NCBI GenBank assembly: GCA_024742485.1
Contig: JANSYK010000003.1
Span: forward strand, 620,001 to 684,000
From: Alphaproteobacteria bacterium
GTDB lineage: Bacteria > Pseudomonadota > Alphaproteobacteria > Rhizobiales > Rhizobiaceae
Reading direction: 5' to 3'
DNA length: 64,000 bases
Part shown: piece after piece, positions 4,506 through 36,675 of the stretch
Layout of the letters: every line of letters starts with the position of its first letter
Position numbering within the stretch: the first letter of the stretch is position 1
Position numbers and translations under genes: made by a program
The notes under the pieces: model-generated
Told to the model about the DNA's origin: nothing
Seen by the model: only the letters and a program-made list of their open reading frames with translations
Database searches by the model: none

Positions 4506-5577
4506 GATTGTTGGACTTTATCTCCAGGTCGGCGTCACGAAAGTCCTGCTCCGTCATTTCACGCACCAGTTCGTCGAATGAAATCTCTGGGGTCCAGCCA
4601 AGAATCTCTTTCGCCTTGGTCGCATCGCCCAGCAGGGTTTCGACTTCCGTTGGGCGGAAGTAGCGCGGATCCACGCTGACAATGACCTTTCCATTGTCGT
4701 CGCGTCCCTTTTCATCGATGCCGGTTCCCTCCCAATGGATGGCCATGTCGAGGCACGTTGCTGCCGCATTGACGAAATCACGCACACTATATTGCTCACC
4801 GGTTGCGATTACGAAATCCTGGGCCGCTTCCTGTTGCAGCATCATCCACTGCATTCGAACATAATCGCGGGCGTGGCCCCAATCACGCTTGGCGTCGAGG
4901 TTGCCAAGATAAAGGCAGTCCTGCGTGCCCAGCTTGATCCGTGCCAGAGCGCGTGTGATCTTGCGCGTAACGAAAGTCTCTCCACGCAGCGGGGACTCAT
5001 GATTGAAAAGAATGCCGTTGCAGGCATAAAGCCCATAGGCCTCACGGTAATTGACGGTGATCCAATAGGCATAGAGCTTGGCCACAGCATAGGGGCTTCG
5101 CGGATAAAACGGCGTTGTTTCCGTTTGCGGCACCTGTTGGACCAAGCCGTAGAGTTCGGATGTCGACGCCTGATAGAATCGGGTTTTTTCACCAAGTCCG
5201 AGAATACGAACGGCCTCCAGAAGGCGCAACGGGCCAAGGGCGTCGGAGTTGGCCGTATATTCCGGTTCCTCAAACGACACGGCCACATGGCTCTGTGCGG
5301 CAAGATTGTAGATTTCATCCGGCCGAATTTGCTGAAGTATATGCGTCAGGCTGGATGAATCCGTCATATCACCATGATGCAGAACGAATTTCCCCGAAGC
5401 GCCATACTCGCCATCAAACAGGTGATCGATGCGTGCGGTGTTGAACAGAGATGTGCGCCGTTTCAGTCCGTGGACTTCATACCCCTTGCCCAACAGCAAT
5501 TCTGCAAGATAGGCGCCGTCCTGCCCGGTGACTCCGGTTATCAGGGCGACCTTTCGGTCGTTCGATTGCTGGATCAA
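4498..5577 (-). CDS. gmd: GDP-mannose 4,6-dehydratase
   Basis: Catalyses GDP-D-mannose to GDP-4-keto-6-deoxy-D-mannose, the first committed step to GDP-fucose. The 359-residue protein has the NADP-binding [11 protein letters not shown] (14-24) and [13 protein letters not shown], and a catalytic set T139-S140-E141 (STSELYG), Y163 and K167 ([12 protein letters not shown]). These lie seven residues from the positions I recall for the E. coli enzyme (T132, E134, Y156, K160). It overlaps fcl by eight bases and lies 26 bases after the GT10 gene, so the three are probably one transcript. Confidence 0.97.
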
Positions 5578-5603
5578 TTTGTATTTCCGTTGCTTGCGTC
5601 GCG

Positions 5604-6569
5604 CTACTGGCCGGCCAATAGATCTCGCATCGTCTCGGCGGCATTTTGTTCATAATCAAGGTAGCGAAGCGCCGTATCGCGATTGCGCTCAATGAATGTT
5701 CGCCTGCGCTTGTAATCATCGGGACCGGCCTTTGCAATCGCTAGTCGCATCTCGTCTGCGGATTCACAGATGACCATGCCCCGCAAATCGAAATAATGCC
5801 CGATATCGGGGGCGCCCCAGTAGATCGGAACTGTTTCACACAGCAGGCTGTCGATCAGCTTCTCCGTGAAATATCCCGCTTCCCGCGCGTTTTCGATGAC
5901 AACCGAATAACGATAGTCTATCAGCCCGTCCTCCTTGGTGTCGATCGGACGATAGGCCCGACCAAGCAAATCGACATCGTGGCCTGCGGCGCTGCACCAG
6001 TCTGCGATTGCATGGCGCAATCGGTGACCGTCCGTGCTCCTTTTGGCCGACGCGATAAGGGACATGTTCTTCGTCTTTTCGCCGGGTTTTGCCGTTGCGG
6101 GGTCGACCCAGGCGCCGCCAAACGGCATTACCAGCGCATTGCGTGCCCAGCGGGCCATGGAAGGGCGGTGGGTGATGAGGCGGAAGAAACGTTTCTGAAG
6201 AAGAATGGCCAGCCAATAGTTGCGGCGATGGATGACGTAGGGTTCAGGAATGATCAGGGAAACGCCGCATTCCACACCCTTGCCGGCATACCGGAAGTTA
6301 CTCGACCTGGGATAGAGGATGACATGATCGTCCGGCGTCAGATCACGGACCGTACCTGCGCACTCCGGTGGGCCAAGGGGCCAGTTGAGCGCATCCAGAG
6401 GAACATCTGACAACATCCCCTTCAGTCGGACCTCATAGGGCAGGACAGCTATCACAATCGCTCGGGTCTTTCGGTCTGATCGAACTGTTGGTTCGTGTTC
6501 ATAACGGTTTGTGGGCGAGCTGCAAATGCCCTGCGGTTTTAGAGTGTTTCTGCGATTCGTCGGCTCCAC
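5604..6569 (-). CDS. GT10 family fucosyltransferase (alpha-1,3/4-fucosyltransferase-like)
   Basis: The C-terminal half holds the GT10 donor-binding signature in pieces: [17 protein letters not shown], then [20 protein letters not shown]. These contain the conserved V-x-E-N, TEK and P-I-Y-W-G elements that bind GDP-fucose. The protein therefore probably transfers L-fucose from GDP-fucose onto a surface glycan in the cytoplasm. The frame starts at a GTG (6569) that overlaps the end of the upstream amidohydrolase gene by 31 bases. A second GTG at 6455, just before the first Rossmann-like strand (VIAVLPYEV), is an alternative start, and neither has a strong ribosome site. The linkage and acceptor cannot be read from sequence. 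No heptad or membrane-anchor tail like that of Helicobacter enzymes is seen. Confidence 0.82.
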
Positions 6570-13097: not shown

Positions 13098-13407
13098 GGG
13101 AACATTATCTCAAAAATTGGGGCATAAGTCTGTCCATCAATCGATGGCAGGTGGCCGGAACTGTGGGTAACTCTCTGTTCAACATCTTCCAGATTGCCAA
13201 AGAGGGGTGAAAAGACCGTTAAGCAATGGTTAGGGCAGGCACTGCGCGCCGCATTCGAGGCAGGGAAAATCCGGTCGAATTGCCGTCCGGTATGCTTGCA
13301 GCAATCGGCGCGGGCGACTATGGTGCAGCGCTTTTGACGGCATCGTGCAGCCGCAAGGCTGAGAAAATACAAACCGGGCGCGCGTACCGGACGATTCAGG
13401 AGTTGAG
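13098..13407. other. Divergent intergenic region slt / dapA
   Basis: About 310 bases between the divergent slt and dapA starts. It must hold both promoters. AGGAG lies five bases before the dapA ATG. I see no strong palindrome, riboswitch-like structure or coding frame. Confidence 0.5.
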
Positions 13408-14289
13408 ATGTTCAGGGGATCCCTTCCGGCGCTCGTCACACCGTTTGACGAAACGGGTGCGTTTGACGAGACAGTATTCGCAGATTTTGTGGAATGGCAG
13501 ATTGCCGAGGGCAGCCAGGGTGTTGTTCCCGTGGGAACGACCGGTGAATCACCCACCCTTTCGCATGACGAGCATAAGCGTGTGGTCGAGCTGTGCGTCA
13601 AAACCGTCAATGCGCGTGTGCCGGTGATAGCCGGGGCTGGCTCGAACAATACGGCGGAAGCCGTTGATTTGGCGCGCCATGCCGAAAGCGCCGGCGCTGA
13701 CGCTGTTTTGGTCGTGACACCGTACTACAACAAGCCGAGTCAGCGTGGGCTATACCAGCATTTCTCGGAGATCGCGAAAGCCGTGTCGTTGCCGATCTTT
13801 ATCTACAATATTCCAGGCCGCTCGATCATCGACATGAGTGTCGAGACAATGGCCTCTCTATCGCAGGACTTCTCCAATATTGTCGGTACCAAGGATGCCA
13901 CTGCCAAACTTGATCGCGTTTCCGAGCAGAGACACGCCTGCGGCCCGGATTTTATACAATTGTCAGGCGAGGACGCGACCGCCCTCGGATTCAATGCCCA
14001 TGGTGGTGTTGGTTGTATTTCCGTGACGGCAAATGTCGCCCCACGGCTTTGTTCGCAATTTCAGCAGGCCACGTTGTCCGGTGATTTTGCAAAGGCCCTG
14101 GAATATCAGGACCGCCTGATGCCGTTGCACAAGGCCCTGTTCATCGAGCCCAATCCCGGTGGCCCGAAATATGCCCTGAGCAAGCTCGGCCATATGGGAG
14201 AAACGCAACGCTCGCCGATGGTGGCAATCGAACAACCCACGCGCGATGCAATTGATGCAGCACTCCGCCATGCGGGATTGCTGAACTGA
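13408..14289 (+). CDS. dapA: 4-hydroxy-tetrahydrodipicolinate synthase
   Basis: Condenses pyruvate with L-aspartate-4-semialdehyde in lysine and diaminopimelate synthesis. The 293-residue TIM barrel has the Schiff-base lysine in GTKDAT (K162), the proton-relay residues in [11 protein letters not shown] (T44, T45) and Tyr133 in FIYNIPGRS, the usual positions for DapA. Ribosome site AGGAG precedes the ATG. smpB follows 41 bases downstream on the same strand. dapA-smpB adjacency is, as I recall, common in Hyphomicrobiales. Confidence 0.97.
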
Positions 14290-14330
14290 AAAATCAGTTT
14301 CGTCCGACCGCTCGGGAGCTCTTGTAGATC

Positions 14331-14807
14331 ATGTCCAAGAACAGCGCCAAGCCGAAGCGGCGCAATGTTGCAGAGAACCGCAAGGCGCGGTTCAACTACG
14401 AGATCATCGACACGTTCGAAGCCGGTCTGGTCCTGACCGGTACGGAGGTCAAGTCGCTGCGCGAGGGCAAGGCGAATATCGCCGAATCCTATGCATCGGA
14501 AGAGGGCGGCGAGATCTGGCTCATCAATTCCTATCTGCCGGAATATCTCCAGGCCAATCGGTTCAATCATGAGACGAGGCGCCGTCGCAAATTGCTTCTG
14601 AACAAGAGGGAAGTACGAAAATTGATCGGTGCGGTCCAGCGCGATGGTATGTCGCTGATACCGCTGAGAATTTACTTCAACGATCGCGGCCGCGCCAAGC
14701 TCGAGCTTGCCCTGGCCAAAGGCAAGAAGATGCATGACAAACGCGAGACTGAAAAGAAGCGCGACTGGGACCGCCAAAAAGCGAGATTGATGCGCGAGAA
14801 GGGGTGA
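14331..14807 (+). CDS. smpB: SsrA (tmRNA)-binding protein SmpB
   Basis: SmpB binds tmRNA and carries it to stalled ribosomes for trans-translation. The 158-residue protein has the family core [43 protein letters not shown] and the positively charged C-terminal tail ([17 protein letters not shown]) that mimics mRNA in the decoding centre. Length is normal. No tmRNA gene was found close by. The next gene, eutA, is convergent. Confidence 0.97.
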
Positions 14808-14976
14808 GGCCAGCTGACCATTGCCGCTTTGCGACCAATCGCATTGAGGCACTTTCGTCCGTCTGGCGGTCTGCCTGCTGGATTGATTGGCGGATTGGTT
14901 TTTTAGGCAGGATTTGGAGCATCTCTCCACATGCGCACGTCAGCCCATCTGTTTGAAAACAAGGAAATCCATCGCA

Positions 14977-15765
14977 TCACGAGGTGTTTTGAGCAGGCAA
15001 TGCCTGGCGAAACAGTGATCCGAACCCTTGGGGGGAGTGATTTGCCAGGCCGCTGACCCGCGTCATCGCCCAAACGCTCGCCTGATTGGAAGTGACGACC
15101 GGTTTGCCGATGCGCTCTTCGATCTCACCGATCAACCCGACGACGGGGAGGGCCGTGCAGGAGATAAAGAGGGCCTGCGCATCCTCATGGTCGGCCGCAA
15201 TTGCCGCGTTGATAATTGTCTCGTCACTGATTCTTGCCATGTCGCGGTCGTCGTCCACACCGAGGCATTCAAATCGAACGATCTCCAGGCCATGAAGCCG
15301 GAAATAATGTGCCATCGGCTCGCTCGTCGCGACGGTATATGGCGTCAGGACCGCGAGTTTTTTCACACCGAAAGCGGAAAGGGCCTGGCGGGCCGCATGG
15401 GTCGGTGTGACCACCGGCACATCCGGAAGGGATAGCTGGATGGCGGACCGCACGGTTTGGTCACCGATGACCACTGAAGCCGCTGTGCAGCTGTAGCAGA
15501 CCGCCCGCAAGGGCCCGGTGGCAGCCAACAGGCTGGCGGATTCGGCAAGCCTCGGTGTCATCTTTCGCAGATTTTCTGGCGTTGTTGGATTCTCATAGGC
15601 GACCCGCGCCACATGGACCGCCACGTCGCGGGCGGGAAGCTGGCGGTAAAAGTCACCCTCACTTGTCAGATCTGTTGCCAGAACTATCAATCCGAACCTG
15701 GCGGTCTGTTCCCGATCGACGAACAGAGGCTTTTCGGTCGAAAGCGCGACACTGATTTGTTCCAT
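14977..15765 (-). CDS. eutA: EutA-like Asp/Glu racemase-superfamily protein of ectoine utilisation clusters
   Basis: The 262-residue protein belongs to the maleate isomerase/arylmalonate decarboxylase/Asp-Glu racemase fold. Two cysteines sit in the paired motifs YSCTAAS (C93) and ISCTALPV (C203), the usual two-Cys active site. AGGAC-type ribosome site (AAGGACGACC) lies upstream of the ATG. Its position directly after an ectoine-type TRAP transporter and a usp gene matches the uehABC-usp-eutA order I recall from marine Rhodobacterales, where eutA is the first of eutABCDE. Its biochemical role there is not firmly established. Here eutB to eutE do not follow: the next gene is the convergent smpB, so eutA ends the module. 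Confidence 0.78.
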   Translation of the reverse strand: MEQISVALSTEKPLFVDREQTARFGLIVLATDLTSEGDFYRQLPARDVAVHVARVAYENPTTPENLRKMTPRLAESASLLAATGPLRAVCYSCTAASVVIGDQTVRSAIQLSLPDVPVVTPTHAARQALSAFGVKKLAVLTPYTVATSEPMAHYFRLHGLEIVRFECLGVDDDRDMARISDETIINAAIAADHEDAQALFISCTALPVVGLIGEIEERIGKPVVTSNQASVWAMTRVSGLANHSPQGFGSLFRQALPAQNTS

Positions 15766-29224: not shown

Positions 29225-29977
29225 ATGCAATGGCAGGATGAGGGAATTGTACTAGGGGTCAAACGACACGGCGAAAGCAGCGCCATCGTCGAGATCATGA
29301 CCCGTGAGCATGGCAGGCATCTGGGCCTTGTGCGTGGTGGCCGGTCACGGCGTATGCAGCCCGTGCTTCAGCCAGGCAATGGAGTGTCGGTGACCTGGCG
29401 CGCGCGGCTCGACCAGCACCTGGGCAGTTTTCAAATCGAACCCGTTGAGTTGCGTGCGGCGCGTCTGATGGAGACCGGGACCGGTGTTTACGGCGTGCAA
29501 GCCATGGGTGCACTTCTTCGCCTGCTGCCCGAACGCGACCCTCACGGGCATCTTTTTGAGGCTCTTGGAATCATTCTGAATCATCTGCATCAACCGATGG
29601 ATGCCGGGGAGCTGTTTGTCCGCTTCGAAATTGCGGTTCTCGAGGATCTTGGTTTTGGGCTGGATCTGACCCGGTGCGCTGCAACCGGCGCGAAGAATCA
29701 GTTGCAATTCGTATCGCCGAAATCAGGCCGGGCAGTCAGCCGCGAGGCGGGCATGCCCTGGCAGGATAAATTGCTGACCTTGCCGTCGTTCCTGGCCGAC
29801 GGCAGCCGGCATGCGGCAGACCCGACGAGCCTGGAAGAGGCATTTCGGCTCACAGGCTTTTTTCTGCATCGCCATGTTTACGAGCCGCGTGGGATGGAAA
29901 TGCCAGATTCGAGGGCTGGATTTATCCAGGCGGTGCTTAAGGCTCATCTGGTTTCGCACAAACCAGATGAGCCTTGA
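29225..29977 (+). CDS. recO: DNA repair protein RecO
   Basis: Recombination mediator of the RecF pathway that helps load RecA on SSB-coated DNA. The 250-residue protein opens with [19 protein letters not shown], an OB-fold, and continues with [17 protein letters not shown] and [14 protein letters not shown]. The central part has [10 protein letters not shown]-like sequence, but the classical zinc-ribbon cysteines are reduced to a single visible one. Last gene of the acpS-lepB-rnc-era-recO run. The final codons form one side of a perfect hairpin. Confidence 0.93.
29939..29975 (+). terminator. Perfect 16-bp hairpin at the end of recO
   Basis: AAGGCTCATCTGGTTT (29939-29954) and AAACCAGATGAGCCTT (29960-29975) are exact complements around CGCAC. 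The hairpin lies inside the last codons of recO, ending at its TGA. No T-run follows, so it may end transcription in a factor-dependent way or shield the 3' end. Confidence 0.55.
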
Positions 29978-30308
29978 TCCGCGTGAACAGTTGTCCGTTC
30001 CAACCAGCCATTCGGGCGACGGTGACGACTGAGAATCAGTTTATGGCTGACTTCTCGACACGCACGACCCCACAGAGCCAGCTATGGCTTGGGAAACAGG
30101 ATTTGATCAGGATCTCGGCTTTCCGTGGGTTGCACTGCGGACCCACGGTAAGGGCAAGCGGACCATGCAATCCAGGACCACATACAAGCATGGCGATCTT
30201 TGTGTACGGGCCGCTACGAGAACGACCAGAGCCTGCTCTGCATAAGTGAACATCTCGCATCCAGGGACAAATCAAGATTGCGCGCTCCACCGAAAAATAC
30301 CGACGGTT
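29978..30308. other. Convergent intergenic region after recO
   Basis: About 330 bases between convergent recO and the repeat-protein gene, without a credible coding frame. It contains two inverted repeats: CCGTGGGT/ACCCACGG (30123-30130 and 30141-30148) and GCGCTCCA/TGGAGCGC (30282-30289 and 30320-30327), the second flanking the stop codon of the minus-strand gene. These may act as transcription end structures. Confidence 0.45.
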
Positions 30309-32204
30309 TCACCGAACTATGGAGCGCCGGAAGTTGAAACGACCCGATCTGCGTTTTTTGGTGACTGCGCGCTCGGAACAAAGAAATTCCAGCTTGCCGA
30401 ATTTGTTTACGTGCACCGTGGCTGCGCTGCGATGATGACAGTATTCAGCGTGTTGGTTCTTTTCCTTCATGGATATGAAAACCAGATGAGGGTCTGTCAA
30501 ACCACCCTCCAGCTTTGACAGCCGCCAATAGCCTTTGCCTTCCAACCCCCAGTCCCCGGTGGTGTGAATGGTGTAGATGCTTCCTGATCCGCACTCGGTG
30601 ACGACGGACAGATTTTCTGAATAGGCATAGGGCTGTTGGGGTTTTGCCTCCACCTGATGCTGTTGCTCGCCCAGCAGCCGAATGCCATCGGAATTCGGCC
30701 GGAAGGCATCCGGTGTCAGTTTGAAAAATCGCGTGTGTCTGGGCTCCAGATTTTTCTTTTTCAAAGATCTGAAAAAACCGCCACCGGGATGTGAAACGAT
30801 CAGGAGGGTTGAACCGTCAGACAGTTTTGCAAGGCCCAGGCCTCCGCCCGCTGATCTCAGGCCCGGGAGCCTGTATCTGTGCTGTTGCTTGTCACCAGCC
30901 GCGTTGACCCCAAACCACCGCAGATAATCCTTGCCGTCTTCAAGCTCGGCCACGAACAATCCGTCACCCAGAACTGAAACGCCGCTGGGATGCTCAACCC
31001 TCGACTTGTGCATCGAATAAAGAACATTCTTGGCATTTCCGCTCGTTCGCGACCATTTTTTGTCCTCGAGAAAGAAAATGAAACCCTTCTTTCTGTGGCT
31101 GTGACTGCCGGCATAAGGGTAACGGACGGAATTCGTGCGCACAAAGCCTTGAACGTGTTTGCCGCCAGATTGAAAACTGTTCTTGGGCTGCATCCCTTCG
31201 GGTCGATACCTGTGGCCCCCGTCAAAGTCCCATGAGCCTTTTACCCAGGATTGGTTCATGCCCTGCGCGAATTGCGCTTCGACATTATTTGCACATTTGT
31301 TGCAATCAAGATCACCAAATTGACATTTGGTTTCGCCAATGGTTGCCAGTTTTCCAGGACCGAAAAACCAGGTGACTTCGATATCGTCAATCTTGTATCC
31401 GGATCTTTTAAACCCTTTTCGGGCTTTGAGCAGGTCCGCGCGCGAGTTCACGACACGCAACTTTTTGTCCGGCCCGGTCTTTCCAAACAGGCCATAATAC
31501 TTTTGACCATCCGTGTTTCCCAGAATTTCAAGATCGATCAGCCGATAGCCTTTTTTGCGAAAGTCGGTGCGCGCCCTTTTGAATTGATCCCAATTTCCGC
31601 CCATGCTGGAGCCGGCTGGATACTTTCCAGCGTGAAAGACGCCCGCGTACCACTGTGTGCTTCCATCATACCAGGTCTCGAAATCATGCATACGGAGGCC
31701 CTGCTTCTCGTATTTTGCCCATTCCTTGTGAAATTTCTTCCACCCCGGGACCACCCATAGAGCGTGTGCTCCCTTACCTTTGATGTAAGTCGCACCAAAA
31801 TAGCGTTTTTTGTTTTCGGTCCAGGTTTCGAAATCCTGCAGCCGGTACCCCTTTTTGCTCCAGTTCTTCCAGCCATTCATGACCGTTTCCAACGACACGC
31901 GTATTTGAGAGGGGTCGTTGCCACGCGTCTTTTTGAAAACACCTGAATATTTCGCAGTGTTGTTCTGAACTTCGAAATCGTGAAGCCGAAAACCATTCTT
32001 TTTGTATTTTAGCCAGCCCTGGTGAAAGTCTTTCCAGTCGCGTGCAATGAGCAGTGTATTGTTGCCTTTTTTCTTCTCAAAGGTTGCGCTCCATCGCCAT
32101 TCGGCAGATGCGACCTGTATCACAGCGGCGTTTCCGATGAACCCAGTCAGCACCACAGCTGCAGCCCGGACGATGTTGGACACTCTGGAAGTCGTCATTT
32201 TCAT
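30309..32204 (-). CDS. Secreted protein with five ~50-residue tandem repeats (polyglycine-hydrolase-like/BTRD1-type) and an unassigned C-terminal domain
   Basis: 631 residues from the ATG at 32204 (AAAGAGG upstream). A signal peptide covers residues 1-34 (cleavage after ASA, before EWRW). Residues 35-285 hold five repeats marked by GFRLHDFE (71), GYRLQDFE (119), GLRMHDFE (169), GYRLIDLE (219) and GYKIDDIE (269), each followed by a Y-x-G-V/L-F strand. This is the pattern I recall for the bacterial tandem repeat domain found before the catalytic part of polyglycine hydrolases. Residues 290-631 begin with a Cys cluster (CQFGDLDCNKC) and contain propeller-like strands (HPSGVSVLGDGLFVAEL, GGGLGLAKLSDGSTLLIV) with no catalytic signature I can name; no serine beta-lactamase motif is seen. 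It follows the metallopeptidase gene by 61 bases and is probably co-transcribed. Confidence 0.75.
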   Translation of the reverse strand: MKMTTSRVSNIVRAAAVVLTGFIGNAAVIQVASAEWRWSATFEKKKGNNTLLIARDWKDFHQGWLKYKKNGFRLHDFEVQNNTAKYSGVFKKTRGNDPSQIRVSLETVMNGWKNWSKKGYRLQDFETWTENKKRYFGATYIKGKGAHALWVVPGWKKFHKEWAKYEKQGLRMHDFETWYDGSTQWYAGVFHAGKYPAGSSMGGNWDQFKRARTDFRKKGYRLIDLEILGNTDGQKYYGLFGKTGPDKKLRVVNSRADLLKARKGFKRSGYKIDDIEVTWFFGPGKLATIGETKCQFGDLDCNKCANNVEAQFAQGMNQSWVKGSWDFDGGHRYRPEGMQPKNSFQSGGKHVQGFVRTNSVRYPYAGSHSHRKKGFIFFLEDKKWSRTSGNAKNVLYSMHKSRVEHPSGVSVLGDGLFVAELEDGKDYLRWFGVNAAGDKQQHRYRLPGLRSAGGGLGLAKLSDGSTLLIVSHPGGGFFRSLKKKNLEPRHTRFFKLTPDAFRPNSDGIRLLGEQQHQVEAKPQQPYAYSENLSVVTECGSGSIYTIHTTGDWGLEGKGYWRLSKLEGGLTDPHLVFISMKEKNQHAEYCHHRSAATVHVNKFGKLEFLCSERAVTKKRRSGRFNFRRSIVR

Positions 32205-32265
32205 GGAACAAGCCTCTTTACGAAATTGGGAGCAAGAGCTGAGGATGCGGTTCAGGTTTTGGTTG

Positions 32266-33975
32266 CTACCAATTGAAACCTGAACTGGGGAACCGTTTGA
32301 ACTCCAGGCCACGGACAGTCTTTCCGTCGTAGACGGCGCGGCCGAACATGTATGTAAACAGGGCATAATTGTCGTTGTTTCGTGTGGTGCGGTTGTAATT
32401 GCGCCCCTTGCAGCCGTTGTAGTTGGCTATATAGACTGCCTTTTTTCCGTATAGCGGACGGGCAGCGCGGTATTTGCCACAGGCTACCCAATAGTCGTGC
32501 GTGTCGCTGACCCAGTAACCACTCCTGGGAATCTTGAGCCAGTGATACAGTTCGTGGACGATGGTTTTTGCGCGAAGACTATTGCGCCTGTTTGGGCTGA
32601 ACCATCCGTCGCAGAAATTGATGGTGCCATTGACGAGGTGATTGGCAGACGGATAGTTGCCCGTCGTGGGGATTTTTCGGTAGCACGGATGCGCTCCCCT
32701 GTTGCCTTCGTTTCTGCGGCATTTGACCGTGTAGGTCGTTCCCCGAAAACGCTTCTGCCAGACCTTTCCGATGGAATCGCGTATCCGCACAAAACGTTTG
32801 CCATCATACGGACCGAACCAACCGCGCATTGACACATTCTCGTAACTCGGCGCGTTGGCATAGTCATTGATGTGGTCATAATTCCACATCCTCTCGCGAC
32901 GCCCCTTGTTCCTGTCAAGATACTGCATGGCCTGATGAGCTCGCCATGCATAGAAATGAGCCAGGGCCCAAGCTTTGTGGATTTGCTGTTTGTCGGATGT
33001 ACTGCACCCCGTATAGCCCTTTGGCCAGCGGATGGCGGGCATATCGATGGGAAACATGTAGCCGGAGCGCGTGTCTTTCTTGGTGCGTTCGCTGAATACG
33101 AAGGCGAGGGGTTTTCCGTTATCTGTTGGATTGGCGTTCCTGGACTCCTTGCGAATCCCGGAAGTGCAGCAATTGTCTTTTACTGCGGCAGCTTCAACAT
33201 TCTTGAGCCAGCATTGCGCTTTGGTTCCATTCGAGGTCCGGCGCACATAGGTATAGGCTTTGCATTCCCGGTCCAGCGCGCACAGGGACGCACACGTGGC
33301 GGAATCTCCGTCGGTGATCTCAAAACTCATATAGTCACCGCCGGGGCGGTCCTCGCCCCTTGTCGATGTCAAAAGGGCTGCCGCTTTGGTCTTCACACCC
33401 GAAGTGCAGCACGTATTGGCAACCGGCGCCGGTTTCGCATTCTTGTACCAGCATTTCGCCTTTGGTCCCTGCGCACCCGGTTTGGAGTAGGTAAAGGCCT
33501 TGCATTGCGTGTCGGCGGAACAGACGTTCTTGCAAATGGCAACATCCGCATGCGGCAGGGTTCTGCTTTTATAATCCGATCCCGGACGGTCACGCCCGGG
33601 CTCGAGCCGGATGATCTCCAAGGCGGATTTTTTCACCCCGGATGTGCAACATTCACTTTTGACGGCTTTTCGGATGGTGTGTTTCAGGTAGCACTTTGCT
33701 TTCGAGCCCTGAACACCCGGTTTCACGTAGGTGTAAGCCTTGCACGCCTCTTCGTCTGCGCAACGCTTCGCACAAAGAGCAGGCCGTGCGCGGTTTAGAA
33801 TTATGGTCCTGAAATCGCCGCCCGGTCGATCAATCCCCCTTTCAACGCTTCCAGAGAAATTGGCAACAGAAGGTGCGACAGTGGCTGCCAATGTGATGGC
33901 GACCGCAGCAACCAACTTGATGAAACCGGAAGGATCGAAGCACCGGCGACAATGCCTGGTTTGTTCAATGAACAT
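32266..33975 (-). CDS. Secreted protein with three PAN/Apple-like repeats and an aspzincin (M35-like) metallopeptidase domain
   Basis: 569 residues with an N-terminal signal (hydrophobic stretch 18-38). Residues 47-280 are three repeats of exactly 80 residues, each with DRPG-S/G-D (at 49, 129, 209), CKA-Y/F-TY (78, 158, 238), a K-A-x-C-W/Y segment and CCTSG (109, 189, 269). They are rich in paired cysteines like PAN_4/Apple modules that bind protein or carbohydrate. The C-terminal part (~290-569) has HELYHWL (HExxH at 474-478), a downstream SDTHDYW with a candidate third zinc ligand and NNDNYALF. This order is known from lysine-specific and M35-like aspzincin peptidases. The likely role is an extracellular zinc protease; the target is unknown. 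GGAAGAGGG precedes the ATG. Confidence 0.8.
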   Translation of the reverse strand: MFIEQTRHCRRCFDPSGFIKLVAAVAITLAATVAPSVANFSGSVERGIDRPGGDFRTIILNRARPALCAKRCADEEACKAYTYVKPGVQGSKAKCYLKHTIRKAVKSECCTSGVKKSALEIIRLEPGRDRPGSDYKSRTLPHADVAICKNVCSADTQCKAFTYSKPGAQGPKAKCWYKNAKPAPVANTCCTSGVKTKAAALLTSTRGEDRPGGDYMSFEITDGDSATCASLCALDRECKAYTYVRRTSNGTKAQCWLKNVEAAAVKDNCCTSGIRKESRNANPTDNGKPLAFVFSERTKKDTRSGYMFPIDMPAIRWPKGYTGCSTSDKQQIHKAWALAHFYAWRAHQAMQYLDRNKGRRERMWNYDHINDYANAPSYENVSMRGWFGPYDGKRFVRIRDSIGKVWQKRFRGTTYTVKCRRNEGNRGAHPCYRKIPTTGNYPSANHLVNGTINFCDGWFSPNRRNSLRAKTIVHELYHWLKIPRSGYWVSDTHDYWVACGKYRAARPLYGKKAVYIANYNGCKGRNYNRTTRNNDNYALFTYMFGRAVYDGKTVRGLEFKRFPSSGFNW

Positions 33976-33996
33976 TCCCTCTTCCTAACCTTAGGG

Positions 33997-34033
33997 CAAT
34001 CCAGGTTTTGACGACGTTGGCAAAACCTGATTG
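33997..34033 (-). promoter_or_regulatory. Inverted repeat in the leader of the metallopeptidase gene
   Basis: CAATCCAGGTTTT (33997-34009) and AAAACCTGATTG (34022-34033) are complementary except for one bulged C, with a 12-base spacer. Lies 22-58 bases upstream of the start codon, so it could be an RNA stem-loop in the leader or a DNA-binding site. Confidence 0.5.
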
Positions 34034-34052
34034 CATCAACAATATCGGTGGT

Positions 34053-34066
34053 CGACACCGGTGTCG
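34053..34066. promoter_or_regulatory. 14-bp perfect palindrome CGACACCGGTGTCG
   Basis: A perfect dyad 78-91 bases upstream of the metallopeptidase ATG. The position suits an operator or activator site; the neighbouring LuxR-type regulator is an obvious candidate but the link is untested. Confidence 0.4.
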
Positions 34067-34453
34067 CATCTCCGACAAAACGAGAAACGGATTGATGACA
34101 AAGACAATCGGTTTCAGCCAGAAGAACCGGCAAATTGCGTCATATGCCGGTGGAGTATCGGTCGGCGGCTGGACTTAGGGCAATCCCTTGATTCTGAGGG
34201 ATTTGGCGAGGTCAGCCGGTGCGGTACACTGAGAATGGGCACCGAAGACTGGCAGGGGTGGCGAGGCGCTGCTGGGCACTCTACCCAATCACGGCGGATT
34301 GCGGCGGTCCTTGCATCGGCCACGAAGCTCAGTCCGAATGGGTCAGTTCGGTTGCCAAGGACGAGAGCGACCCTCAAACGTCTCGATCCCAATTCAGGAT
34401 GTAACGGTTGTTCCGTGGTGGCACCACTTGAAATCGCAAAATCTGCCCATTCG

Positions 34454-35197
34454 CTACAAGGTGATTTCGTTCCGCAACAACGCGCGTGCGACTGCTTCTG
34501 GACGGGTGCGTGCTCCGAGTTTTTTTCGGGCGTTCGATATATATTCACTGACAGTCGGAACTGAGAGAACAAGCCGATCTGCAATCTGATTGGTCCGCAG
34601 CCCGATTGCCAAGAGCGCAAGACAATCGCGCTCACGAGGGGACAACACAGGTTTTGACGACTGCATCGGTGCAATGTGGGAAATTTTCGTATTCAAGAAC
34701 AGTGCTGCAACCTGAAGGTCGTTTGCCAGTCGCAATATGTTCTGTGGTCTGAATTTTGACGACTTGTCAAAAAATAGGGTGAGGTTGCCGTACGTCGACC
34801 TGTCCAGTTGATGGATCGGTATCGTCACACCGCCATGTACATGAAAATCGGCTGCCAACGCCATGAATCTGCGCTCATTGGCATCACTGATTTTTGTGGG
34901 CTCGCATTTCCAGATTAGGGGACGGGTGTTGTTTTTGCAGTAGTCCGGGAATCTGTCGGCGGCCTGCAGGGACTTGTCTGCAAGCACCGCATTCAACAAG
35001 TCATCGCTGACAAATTTTCCATAGGTTTTGCCATGTCGCACCTTGTCCCGAACACCATTCCTTCCGTCCACAGGAATGTCGGAACAAAAGAACGCGCAAA
35101 AAGGCTGCAGGTCAGCAAATTGCGAAACAACACAATTGAGTGCCGCGATTTCACTATGGGATTCGTGCAGGTCGTCGAGTAACTGGCGGTGGTCCAT
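34454..35197 (-). CDS. LuxR-family transcriptional regulator with autoinducer-binding-like domain (LuxR solo)
   Basis: 247 residues. The C-terminal GerE-type helix-turn-helix is clear: LSPRERDCLALLAIGLRTNQ, IADRLVLSVPTVSEYISNARKKLGA. The N-terminal ~170 residues resemble an autoinducer-binding fold, with HVHGGVTIPIHQLD carrying the conserved Gly-Gly region and LIWKCEP an aromatic position, but the full Trp-Tyr-Asp-Trp ligand set cannot be confirmed by eye. No luxI-type synthase is in the window, so it is a solo. ATG at 35197 has GAGG seven bases upstream; a TTG at 35203 is the frame's first start. It lies on the same strand upstream of the secreted metallopeptidase and repeat-protein genes and may control them. 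Confidence 0.83.
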   Translation of the reverse strand: MDHRQLLDDLHESHSEIAALNCVVSQFADLQPFCAFFCSDIPVDGRNGVRDKVRHGKTYGKFVSDDLLNAVLADKSLQAADRFPDYCKNNTRPLIWKCEPTKISDANERRFMALAADFHVHGGVTIPIHQLDRSTYGNLTLFFDKSSKFRPQNILRLANDLQVAALFLNTKISHIAPMQSSKPVLSPRERDCLALLAIGLRTNQIADRLVLSVPTVSEYISNARKKLGARTRPEAVARALLRNEITL

Positions 35198-35231
35198 GAC
35201 CAAACCTCACAAGCCGAGCACCCCACCTGAT

Positions 35232-35258
35232 CCCCACAATCAACCTTAATTGTCGGGG
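35232..35258 (-). promoter_or_regulatory. Inverted repeat ahead of the LuxR-type gene
   Basis: CCCCACAAT (35232-35240) and ATTGTCGGGG (35249-35258) are complementary apart from one extra C, with an 8-base spacer, 35 bases upstream of the ATG. Candidate autoregulatory site or leader hairpin. Confidence 0.4.
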
Positions 35259-35433
35259 CAGATGGTGACAAGTCAATTTCCAGCGGATGTTCACGACCGA
35301 AATGTTCGCGCAGGGCGGCCTTCTTCACAGCCATTCGCCGAAAGAAGTTACGCGATACATCCCACCTGTGGGAACCCAGAGGGTTCGCTCAGGACCAGCG
35401 GTAGCCACGAGTGACAGCATACCAATTTGTGTC

Positions 35434-36675
35434 CTACTCGGCTGCAACCGGACTTGGCCTATCGACAGCCTTCTCGCTGATGGGCCAATTGAGCAGCGCC
35501 GCGACCAGGCCAAGCGCGACGGAGATCCACCAGACAGGGTCAAAGCTGCCGATCCGATCATACAGGTAGCCACCAAGATAAACCCCCAGGAACGAGCCGA
35601 TCTGGTGTGACAGGAACACGATACCGCCAAGCATGCCGAGATGGCGCGTGCCGAACATGATGGCGACAAGAGCGTTGGTCAGCGGTACCGTTGACAGCCA
35701 CAAAAGGCCGATCGTGATGGAGAAAACGATGACCGAAACCCCTGTCGGCGGCAACAGCAGGAAGAGCGCGATGGCCACCGAACGGCTGAGATAGAGCCCA
35801 ACGAGCAGCATCGGCTTTGAATGGCGTTGCCCCAGGAATCCGGCCGCCAGGGATCCGATTATGTTGAAAAAACCGATCAGGGCGACCGCGAACACGGTGT
35901 AGCGTGAATCCAGGCCGATATCACTGATATAGGCTGGAAAATGCGCCGTGATAAACGCCACATGGAAGCCGCAAACAAAGAATCCCGTCGTCAGCAACAC
36001 GTAGCTTTGGTGACCAAACGCTTCACGAAGCGCCTGGCGAACGGTCTGTTCGATATCGGTTGAGGCGTAGGCGCCGGATTGTGCATTGCCGCGCAGAGCC
36101 ACTGCCAAGACCGGAATCGCCAGCATGGCGATGGCCATATAAACCAGCGTGTCGGACCATCCGACCGCATTGATCAGACCCTGGGTGATCGGTGCAAACA
36201 CGAACATTCCGGCCGATCCGGCTGCTGTTCCAAATCCGAATGCCAGTGGGCGGTTTGCGGCCGAGACATTGCGGGCGAAGGCGGCCATTATGATGCCGAA
36301 GGAACCGGCGCCGACCGCAAGCCCTATCAGAATTCCGCCGCCGATATGCAGCCAGATCGGAGCATCGGCGATCGCCATGATATAGAGCCCGGCGGAATAG
36401 AGCAGTGCTGAAAGAAATAACACGCGCCACGTGCCGTATCGGTCGGCGATGGCGCCGAATACCGGTTGCGCGAAGCCCCAGAACAGGTTTTGCAGTGCCA
36501 TGGCGACCGCAAATGTCGTTCGGTCCCAGCCCATTTCTGCCAGCATTGGAAGCTGAAAGAAGCCCATGACCGATCGCGGCCCGAATGTCATGGCGGAAAT
36601 CAGGCAGCCTGACAGGATGATCAGCCACGGCAGTCCGGTCTTGGTAGGTGATTCCGGTCCCAATTCGTCCCCCAA
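35434..36675 (-). CDS. Major facilitator superfamily transporter
   Basis: The 413-residue protein has twelve predicted membrane helices and MFS features: FGAIADRYGTWRVLFL (loop 2-3 motif), GGILIGLAVGAGSFGI in helix 4-5, and GIVFLSHQIGSFLGVYLGGYLYD near the C-terminus, as in the OFA/monocarboxylate-like subgroup. Substrate unknown. It is divergent from nadA, sharing the upstream region with the nadABC operon, but no sequence feature ties it to NAD precursors. The start at 36675 gives a short soluble N-terminus; no better start is visible. Confidence 0.85.
   Translation of the reverse strand: MGDELGPESPTKTGLPWLIILSGCLISAMTFGPRSVMGFFQLPMLAEMGWDRTTFAVAMALQNLFWGFAQPVFGAIADRYGTWRVLFLSALLYSAGLYIMAIADAPIWLHIGGGILIGLAVGAGSFGIIMAAFARNVSAANRPLAFGFGTAAGSAGMFVFAPITQGLINAVGWSDTLVYMAIAMLAIPVLAVALRGNAQSGAYASTDIEQTVRQALREAFGHQSYVLLTTGFFVCGFHVAFITAHFPAYISDIGLDSRYTVFAVALIGFFNIIGSLAAGFLGQRHSKPMLLVGLYLSRSVAIALFLLLPPTGVSVIVFSITIGLLWLSTVPLTNALVAIMFGTRHLGMLGGIVFLSHQIGSFLGVYLGGYLYDRIGSFDPVWWISVALGLVAALLNWPISEKAVDRPSPVAAE

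Follow-up and report, generated by a model that had tools for sequence, protein, structure and literature searches.

A 64,000-nt window of the genome of a rhizobiaceous alphaproteobacterium (the whole stretch analysed here: positions 620,001 to 684,000 of contig JANSYK010000003.1, assembly GCA_024742485.1; 6.87 Mb in 161 contigs overall) contains a clean, well-delimited insertion of 5,456 bp between recO and a major facilitator superfamily (MFS) gene. The combination of three genes carried by this block is unusual. They encode a LuxR-type regulator, a secreted-looking protein in which three PAN_4 repeats precede a domain divergently related to the M35 aspzincins, and a further secreted-looking protein, made up of five BTRD1 repeats and a C-terminal half without assignment. 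We tentatively favour, as quite possible though short of probable, the explanation that the block was acquired horizontally and encodes an exported protease with a docking-protein partner, switched by the LuxR-type protein. Two new facts stand out: an aspzincin subfamily represented in three distant bacteria, and the linkage of this subfamily to a BTRD1 gene in a second genome.

The three genes run in a row on the minus strand, as a first-pass annotation of the window's letters had described, and each open reading frame (ORF) is free of internal stops. The LuxR-type gene (34454..35197, 247 residues) lies upstream, 478 bp from the protease-like gene (32266..33975, 569 residues), which is separated by 61 bp from the repeat-protein gene (30309..32204, 631 residues). 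The last of these frames is open from 32366, and the start at 32204 was our choice, made for its signal-like N-terminus. Hydrophobic signal-like N-terminal stretches are present on both longer proteins, as judged by eye from the sequence.

The block spans 29978..35433 and is flanked by recO (29225-29977) and the MFS gene (35434-36675). Both flanking genes were found in all eight members of the genus, and their frames end 3-32 bp apart in each of the seven others, compared with 5,456 bp here. A DNA search returned matches to the block genes in the source genome only; in 3 of the 7 other members the first-look candidates were scored in part. The G + C content at third codon positions (GC3) is low for the repeat-protein gene (0.584) and the LuxR gene (0.569), relative to a mean of 0.657 (sd 0.028) over 19 other, hand-picked ORFs of the window. 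No integrase or transposase domain was found by Pfam in the block's three main ORFs, the spacer ORFs lying outside that scan. Horizontal acquisition is the best reading of the block, as one part of the joint explanation given above.

The HExxH domain of the protease-like protein carries HELYH at residues 474-478, a conserved D491 and H493, and N533-x-D-N-Y537. A genome scan returned nine pattern matches, two of which were confirmed as close relatives: one in Cyanobacteria bacterium FACHB-63 (56% identity to the window domain) and one in a Thiotrichaceae metagenome-assembled genome (MAG; 50%). HE..H (474, 475, 478), D491, H493, N533, D535, N536 and Y537 are invariant in the three members, which thus share HExxH-x(11-12)-D-x-H, with spacers of 12, 12 and 11 residues between HExxH and the Asp, as well as N-[NT]-D-N-Y. 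The HExxH motif with its catalytic-type Glu is kept in all three. Kinship to M35 was measured with a control profile (A7) made from five real M35 proteins of class-mates, retrieved via PF14521 and including no member of the new group; the class search had given seven matches, and A7 excludes one genome's second protein (used in profile A2 only) and one protein below cut-off. A7 scored the Thiotrichaceae, window and cyanobacterial proteins at 35.9, 25.8 and 23.3 bits, as against 4.5 bits for the best of 300 shuffles and 5.9 for the best of 566 other window ORFs. Profile-profile comparison of the new group with M35 gave a probability of 97.5 and an E-value of 6.4e-12.

Like the known M35 aspzincins (deuterolysin, 1eb6; GfMEP, 1g12; AsaP1, 2x3a), the new group has a WFG motif, HExxH and N-x-D-x-Y, and its profile matches stand above the controls. 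Unlike them, it has 11-12 residues between HExxH and the Asp, D-x-H in place of DxxY(G), extra segments, and scores below the Pfam cut-off; in the profile alignments its conserved Asp falls one column before the canonical M35 one. These comparisons place the HExxH domain in a divergent subfamily homologous to M35, and the predicted metalloprotease activity is likely.

No homologues of the catalytic domain were found in plasmids (with the window query or the Thiotrichaceae query), phages or viral contigs, and a search of 385 class genomes gave the source genome and two weak matches, read as spurious because GGDEF-like and ABC-permease-like ORFs, in our own reading of the frames, cover the matching stretches. 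A profile built from the three members (A3) recovered the known member alone among 291 genomes around the cyanobacterium and among 194 around the Thiotrichaceae MAG, both sets being samples of larger groups. The whole protease-like protein had just two unrelated weak matches among PDB sequences. A mixed profile did match M35 structures, which is no independent test, since that profile already held M35 rows.

The N-terminal part of the same protein has a different distribution. The PAN-like repeats proposed at first pass are supported (PAN_4, 1e-41, three stretches) and occupy about residues 48-280. Of 297 genomes of the order, 64 (the source genome included) have matches to the whole protein, with up to 56% identity to it in the PAN stretches; among the matches listed, none but the self-match reaches residue 474, where HExxH starts, the longest-reaching of the others stopping at 362. 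Other PAN_4 proteins of the order thus resemble the window protein in their PAN stretches and differ in having no HExxH, the motif being absent from all 27 PAN-like frames (of 29 PAN-bearing loci, a script drew one such frame from each of 27 and nothing from the other two). No PAN domain was found by Pfam in the cyanobacterial or Thiotrichaceae relative, so that the arm belongs to the window protein alone among the three. Because PAN matches are widespread in the order and none of these 27 frames carries HExxH, the PAN arm seems to be of local origin and the catalytic part foreign. Apart from the window protein, the single PAN_4 match listed for the source genome is an alpha-2-macroglobulin of bacterial type that carries a PAN domain at its N-terminus (locus L073, 191-5692, minus strand).

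The five repeats of about 50 residues noted at first pass in the second exported protein are all visible in its predicted model and are BTRD1 repeats, the N-domain of polyglycine hydrolases. The Pfam match (1e-9, 38.6 bits, three stretches) is above the cut-off of 23, and in the model residues 35-280 form five strand-helix-strand units, whose helices start at 57, 105, 155, 205 and 255. Ten-residue block means of model confidence run from 56 to 90 over residues 41-280; nothing is reliable after 278, the C-terminal half having predicted local distance difference test (pLDDT) values below 50. The best PDB fold match is 7tpu, the fungal polyglycine hydrolase Fvan-cmp (probability 1.00, E 3.9e-3). 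An excerpt of one report describes the N-domain of these enzymes as five quasi-identical repeats of unknown function (PMC9912923).

With polyglycine hydrolases and bacterial BTRD1 proteins the window protein shares a signal-like N-terminus followed by five repeats of BTRD1 type. It differs from them in what comes next: Pfam finds no beta-lactamase-like C-domain in it, though that domain is found in the other BTRD1 protein of the same genome, and its own C-terminal half has no Pfam family at E <= 1 and no relative that we found. Homologues of the repeat protein were limited to the protein itself among 297 genomes of the order, with none in plasmids, viral contigs or PDB sequences. BTRD1 was present in 3 of 200 class genomes, the source genome included. 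In the other BTRD1 proteins examined, its partner is a beta-lactamase-like domain (source genome and cyanobacterium), an M23-like stretch below cut-off (G462) or none (G300, the first of its BTRD1 genes). In G462 the BTRD1 repeats (four stretches) follow the M23-like peptidase stretch in a gene at locus L112, 3709-5586, minus strand. A six-frame BTRD1 search of the source genome at E <= 0.001 listed the other BTRD1 gene and not that of the window. This other gene (locus L072, 1953-3911, minus strand) encodes five repeats and a beta-lactamase-like domain; 171 bp upstream of it lies a regulator-like gene (L072, 4083-5309, minus strand) whose LuxR-type helix-turn-helix (HTH) is weak. A repeated association of LuxR with BTRD1 was considered and rejected, the regulator-like gene matching GerE at only 0.072 in a 237-residue part and not at all at E <= 0.01 in the 408-residue frame.

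The cyanobacterial relative lends some support to the idea that the two exported proteins are linked. In that 7.2-Mb genome all five BTRD1 matches fall in one gene, the only BTRD1 gene found there, and this gene (13194-15101) is on the same contig and strand as the aspzincin-like gene (5045-6007), 7.2 kb away within a stretch of about 10 kb. By our estimate, random placement of one gene in 7.2 Mb would bring it within 7.2 kb in about 0.2% of cases. The five-BTRD1 domain of the cyanobacterial protein aligns in pieces with the window repeat protein at 27-31% identity (hhalign). The linkage was seen in one of the two independent relatives, and what support it lends does not extend to the LuxR gene. 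Within the scope of open-licence papers, we found no literature coupling an aspzincin with a PAN domain, or deuterolysin with polyglycine hydrolase, and none joining PAN domain, metalloprotease and Alphaproteobacteria; this does not prove absence elsewhere.

The neighbourhoods of the two relatives hold other genes as well. In the cyanobacterium, 39 bp separate the aspzincin-like gene from a following gene (locus L063, 6047-7036, plus strand) for a secreted-looking protein of 329 residues, which has no credible Pfam match. We considered whether the C-terminal half of the window repeat protein might be a beta-propeller and a homologue of this 329-residue protein. This reading was dropped because BLASTP, single-sequence hhalign and a shuffle-controlled four-member profile, in which 9 of 30 shuffles outscored the real sequence, all failed to support it; propeller structures do occur lower in the fold list of the repeat protein, none of them significant. 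Relatives of the 329-residue protein are present in Streptomyces, Embleya and Hymenobacter plasmid records, where no aspzincin-like neighbour scored below E 0.07 with either profile (227 six-frame ORFs of at least 60 residues, three stretches). In the Thiotrichaceae MAG, the convergent neighbour of the aspzincin-like gene encodes a 1046-residue protein with LamG and Sortilin-Vps10/BNR repeats (locus L064, 8991-12131, minus strand).

The third gene of the block encodes a LuxR-type regulator, as proposed at first pass, with both expected domains, an Autoind_bind-like N-terminal half (2.7e-10) and a GerE HTH (3.7e-15). It shares these domains with LuxR solos and TraR-type regulators. The claim that the regulator has no synthase agrees with the lack of any Autoind_synth match in the whole genome, a weak form of agreement because the control genomes were equally silent. 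Aligned with a plasmid TraR and another plasmid LuxR, the window protein keeps D81, W96 and G123 at the positions of D70, W85 and G113, and is altered at those of W57, Y61 and P71, so that three of the six residues that we take to form the TraR pocket are conserved. Given these three changes, an ordinary acyl-homoserine lactone is not expected as ligand, and some other compound may fill that role.

Between the LuxR and protease-like genes lies one copy (33989..34090) of a dispersed intergenic repeat of about 100 bp with two palindromic parts. At least about 37 further matches occur in the source genome and at least about 37 in one genus relative (G683); in the DNA search of the other six genus members no match was listed, candidate scoring being partial in three. 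The copy folds better than most shuffles (z -2.63, with 4 of 200 as good). A 28-bp palindrome before the protease-like gene was considered as a LuxR operator and rejected, since it belongs to this genome-wide repeat. Promoter- and terminator-like sites of the locus were not above shuffles, and RNA-family searches gave two matches, both below gathering scores. PHROGs gave no match for the four proteins tested. A defence library gave none for the two exported proteins of the window or the two cyanobacterial ones; with the LuxR protein it matched the HTH stretch alone.

Taken as an exported pair under LuxR control, the block might work as follows. The protease-like and repeat-protein genes would probably be co-transcribed, and both products would leave the cytoplasm. 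The first would be a divergent aspzincin-like metalloprotease with a targeting arm of three PAN_4 repeats, which are of a type often met in the order; the second, with its five-repeat BTRD1 domain and its C-terminal half, would be the docking partner. Binding of the target, whether protein or glycan, may fall to the PAN and BTRD1 parts, and cleavage of an extracellular protein to the zinc domain. Expression of the pair would probably be switched on by the upstream LuxR-type protein once it meets its ligand, which would not be an ordinary acyl-homoserine lactone; the density- or host-cue control suggested at first pass is conjectural.

A number of observations weigh against this explanation, some of them touching the enzyme itself. 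The aspzincin-like domain named by the first-pass annotation stands as a matter of kinship, through profiles controlled with shuffles and other ORFs, and does not stand by the Pfam cut-off: the window protein matches Aspzincin_M35 (PF14521) at E 8.6e-4 and 20.2 bits, below the curated 30, and the Thiotrichaceae relative reaches 27.4 bits. The cyanobacterial relative has no Pfam match, and a six-frame PF14521 search of the source genome gave none at E <= 0.01. The M35 signature given in part of one report is GTxDxxYG (PMC12924839); this third-ligand motif is absent in the three members (SDTHDY, SDIHDY and TDTHVH), and the third zinc ligand is ambiguous. A3 had no match among PDB sequences. An AlphaFold model of the domain, built from three sequences, is of low confidence (pLDDT 42.6); counting instead in favour, the top two Foldseek matches of this model, AsaP1 and deuterolysin, are both M35, at E-values that are not significant (1.3 and 2.5). 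For the repeat protein, TM-scores to 7tpu over the whole lengths are 0.22 and 0.23, and no PDB match reaches E 0.001. Other observations touch the partnership. No BTRD1 match was obtained in the Thiotrichaceae genome, and in the polyglycine-hydrolase-like BTRD1 protein of the cyanobacterium the repeats are joined to a beta-lactamase-like domain in place of the C-terminal half of the window protein. The GC3 of the protease-like gene is ordinary (0.635). No LuxR-type gene was seen beside either relative in ORF lists read by eye, with Pfam run on part of the ORFs; among those run, the regulators comprised an AAA protein and a response regulator of LytTR type, the latter in the Thiotrichaceae MAG.

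The block could instead be an islet of unrelated passengers, three genes that arrived together or successively in a tolerant spacer and have no joint function. The 478 bp and the dispersed repeat that separate LuxR from the protease-like gene fit such an origin, as do the GC3 differences among the three genes, and the missing BTRD1 match in the Thiotrichaceae genome fits it too. Pieces of transposase lie near the cyanobacterial aspzincin-like and BTRD1 genes, so even those two could have been transferred together without joint function. The co-occurrence check put forward in the first-pass annotation brought two of the three gene kinds together once, in the cyanobacterium, and all three in neither relative. 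That annotation would have counted its proposal refuted by an absence of co-occurrence elsewhere together with an HExxH region that does not model as a zinc site; this one two-kind co-occurrence and the low-confidence model just described do not amount to such a refutation. Its suggestion of joint function has some support for the two exported proteins, through the cyanobacterial linkage, to which the Thiotrichaceae relative, with no BTRD1 match in its genome, adds none. Two points count against mere passengers, namely the 61-bp spacing of the two exported-protein genes on one strand and the independent cyanobacterial linkage, with its small estimated chance under random placement. We regard the passenger account as unlikely, while giving it serious weight.

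Other alternatives accept a joint role and alter its nature. The HExxH domain could bind zinc without being proteolytic, like a secreted Pra1-type scavenger, with adhesive roles for the PAN and BTRD1 parts. The missing canonical third-ligand motif and the conserved extra His (H493) point that way, together with the weak match of the mixed M35 profile to PRA1 (pH-regulated antigen; E 0.029) and the zinc capture by Pra1 related in part of one report (PMC3386192). Against it, no member has lost the Glu of HExxH, and an Asp nearby is conserved as well. Pra1's own motif differs from that of the new group, and on balance we consider a zinc scavenger improbable. Slightly more doubtful still, in our judgement, is a broader idea in which the block is one form of a mobile module found in distant groups. 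The unnamed aspzincin subfamily (HExxH-x(11-12)-D-x-H) and polyglycine-hydrolase N-domains would together attack secreted defence proteins, the PAN repeats and a LuxR solo that does not respond to acyl-homoserine lactones being additions of this lineage. A bacterial counterpart of the fungal chitinase-modifying proteins, in which the pair would disarm chitinases, or further glycine-rich proteins, secreted by a host or a competitor, seems highly improbable. Excerpts of two reports lend the idea its appeal: polyglycine hydrolases, with such a five-repeat N-domain, cut the linker of a plant chitinase (PMC9912923), and fungal M35 proteins reportedly suppress plant chitinases (PMC12924839). The two domain kinds are moreover linked both in the window and in one cyanobacterium. 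However, no host or niche is known for the source genome, the window repeat protein lacks the beta-lactamase-like catalytic domain, and BTRD1 also occurs with other domains or alone.

The block is also of use for a more general question. A BTRD1 domain without the beta-lactamase-like domain, encoded beside a protease-like protein, offers a genetically simple place to ask what BTRD1 binds, given that its function is described as unknown in the excerpt cited above and that the cyanobacterial relative of the protease-like protein is encoded near a BTRD1 gene. The aspzincin subfamily, which keeps HExxH and not GTxDxxYG, may for its part illustrate how far the M35 zinc site can drift.

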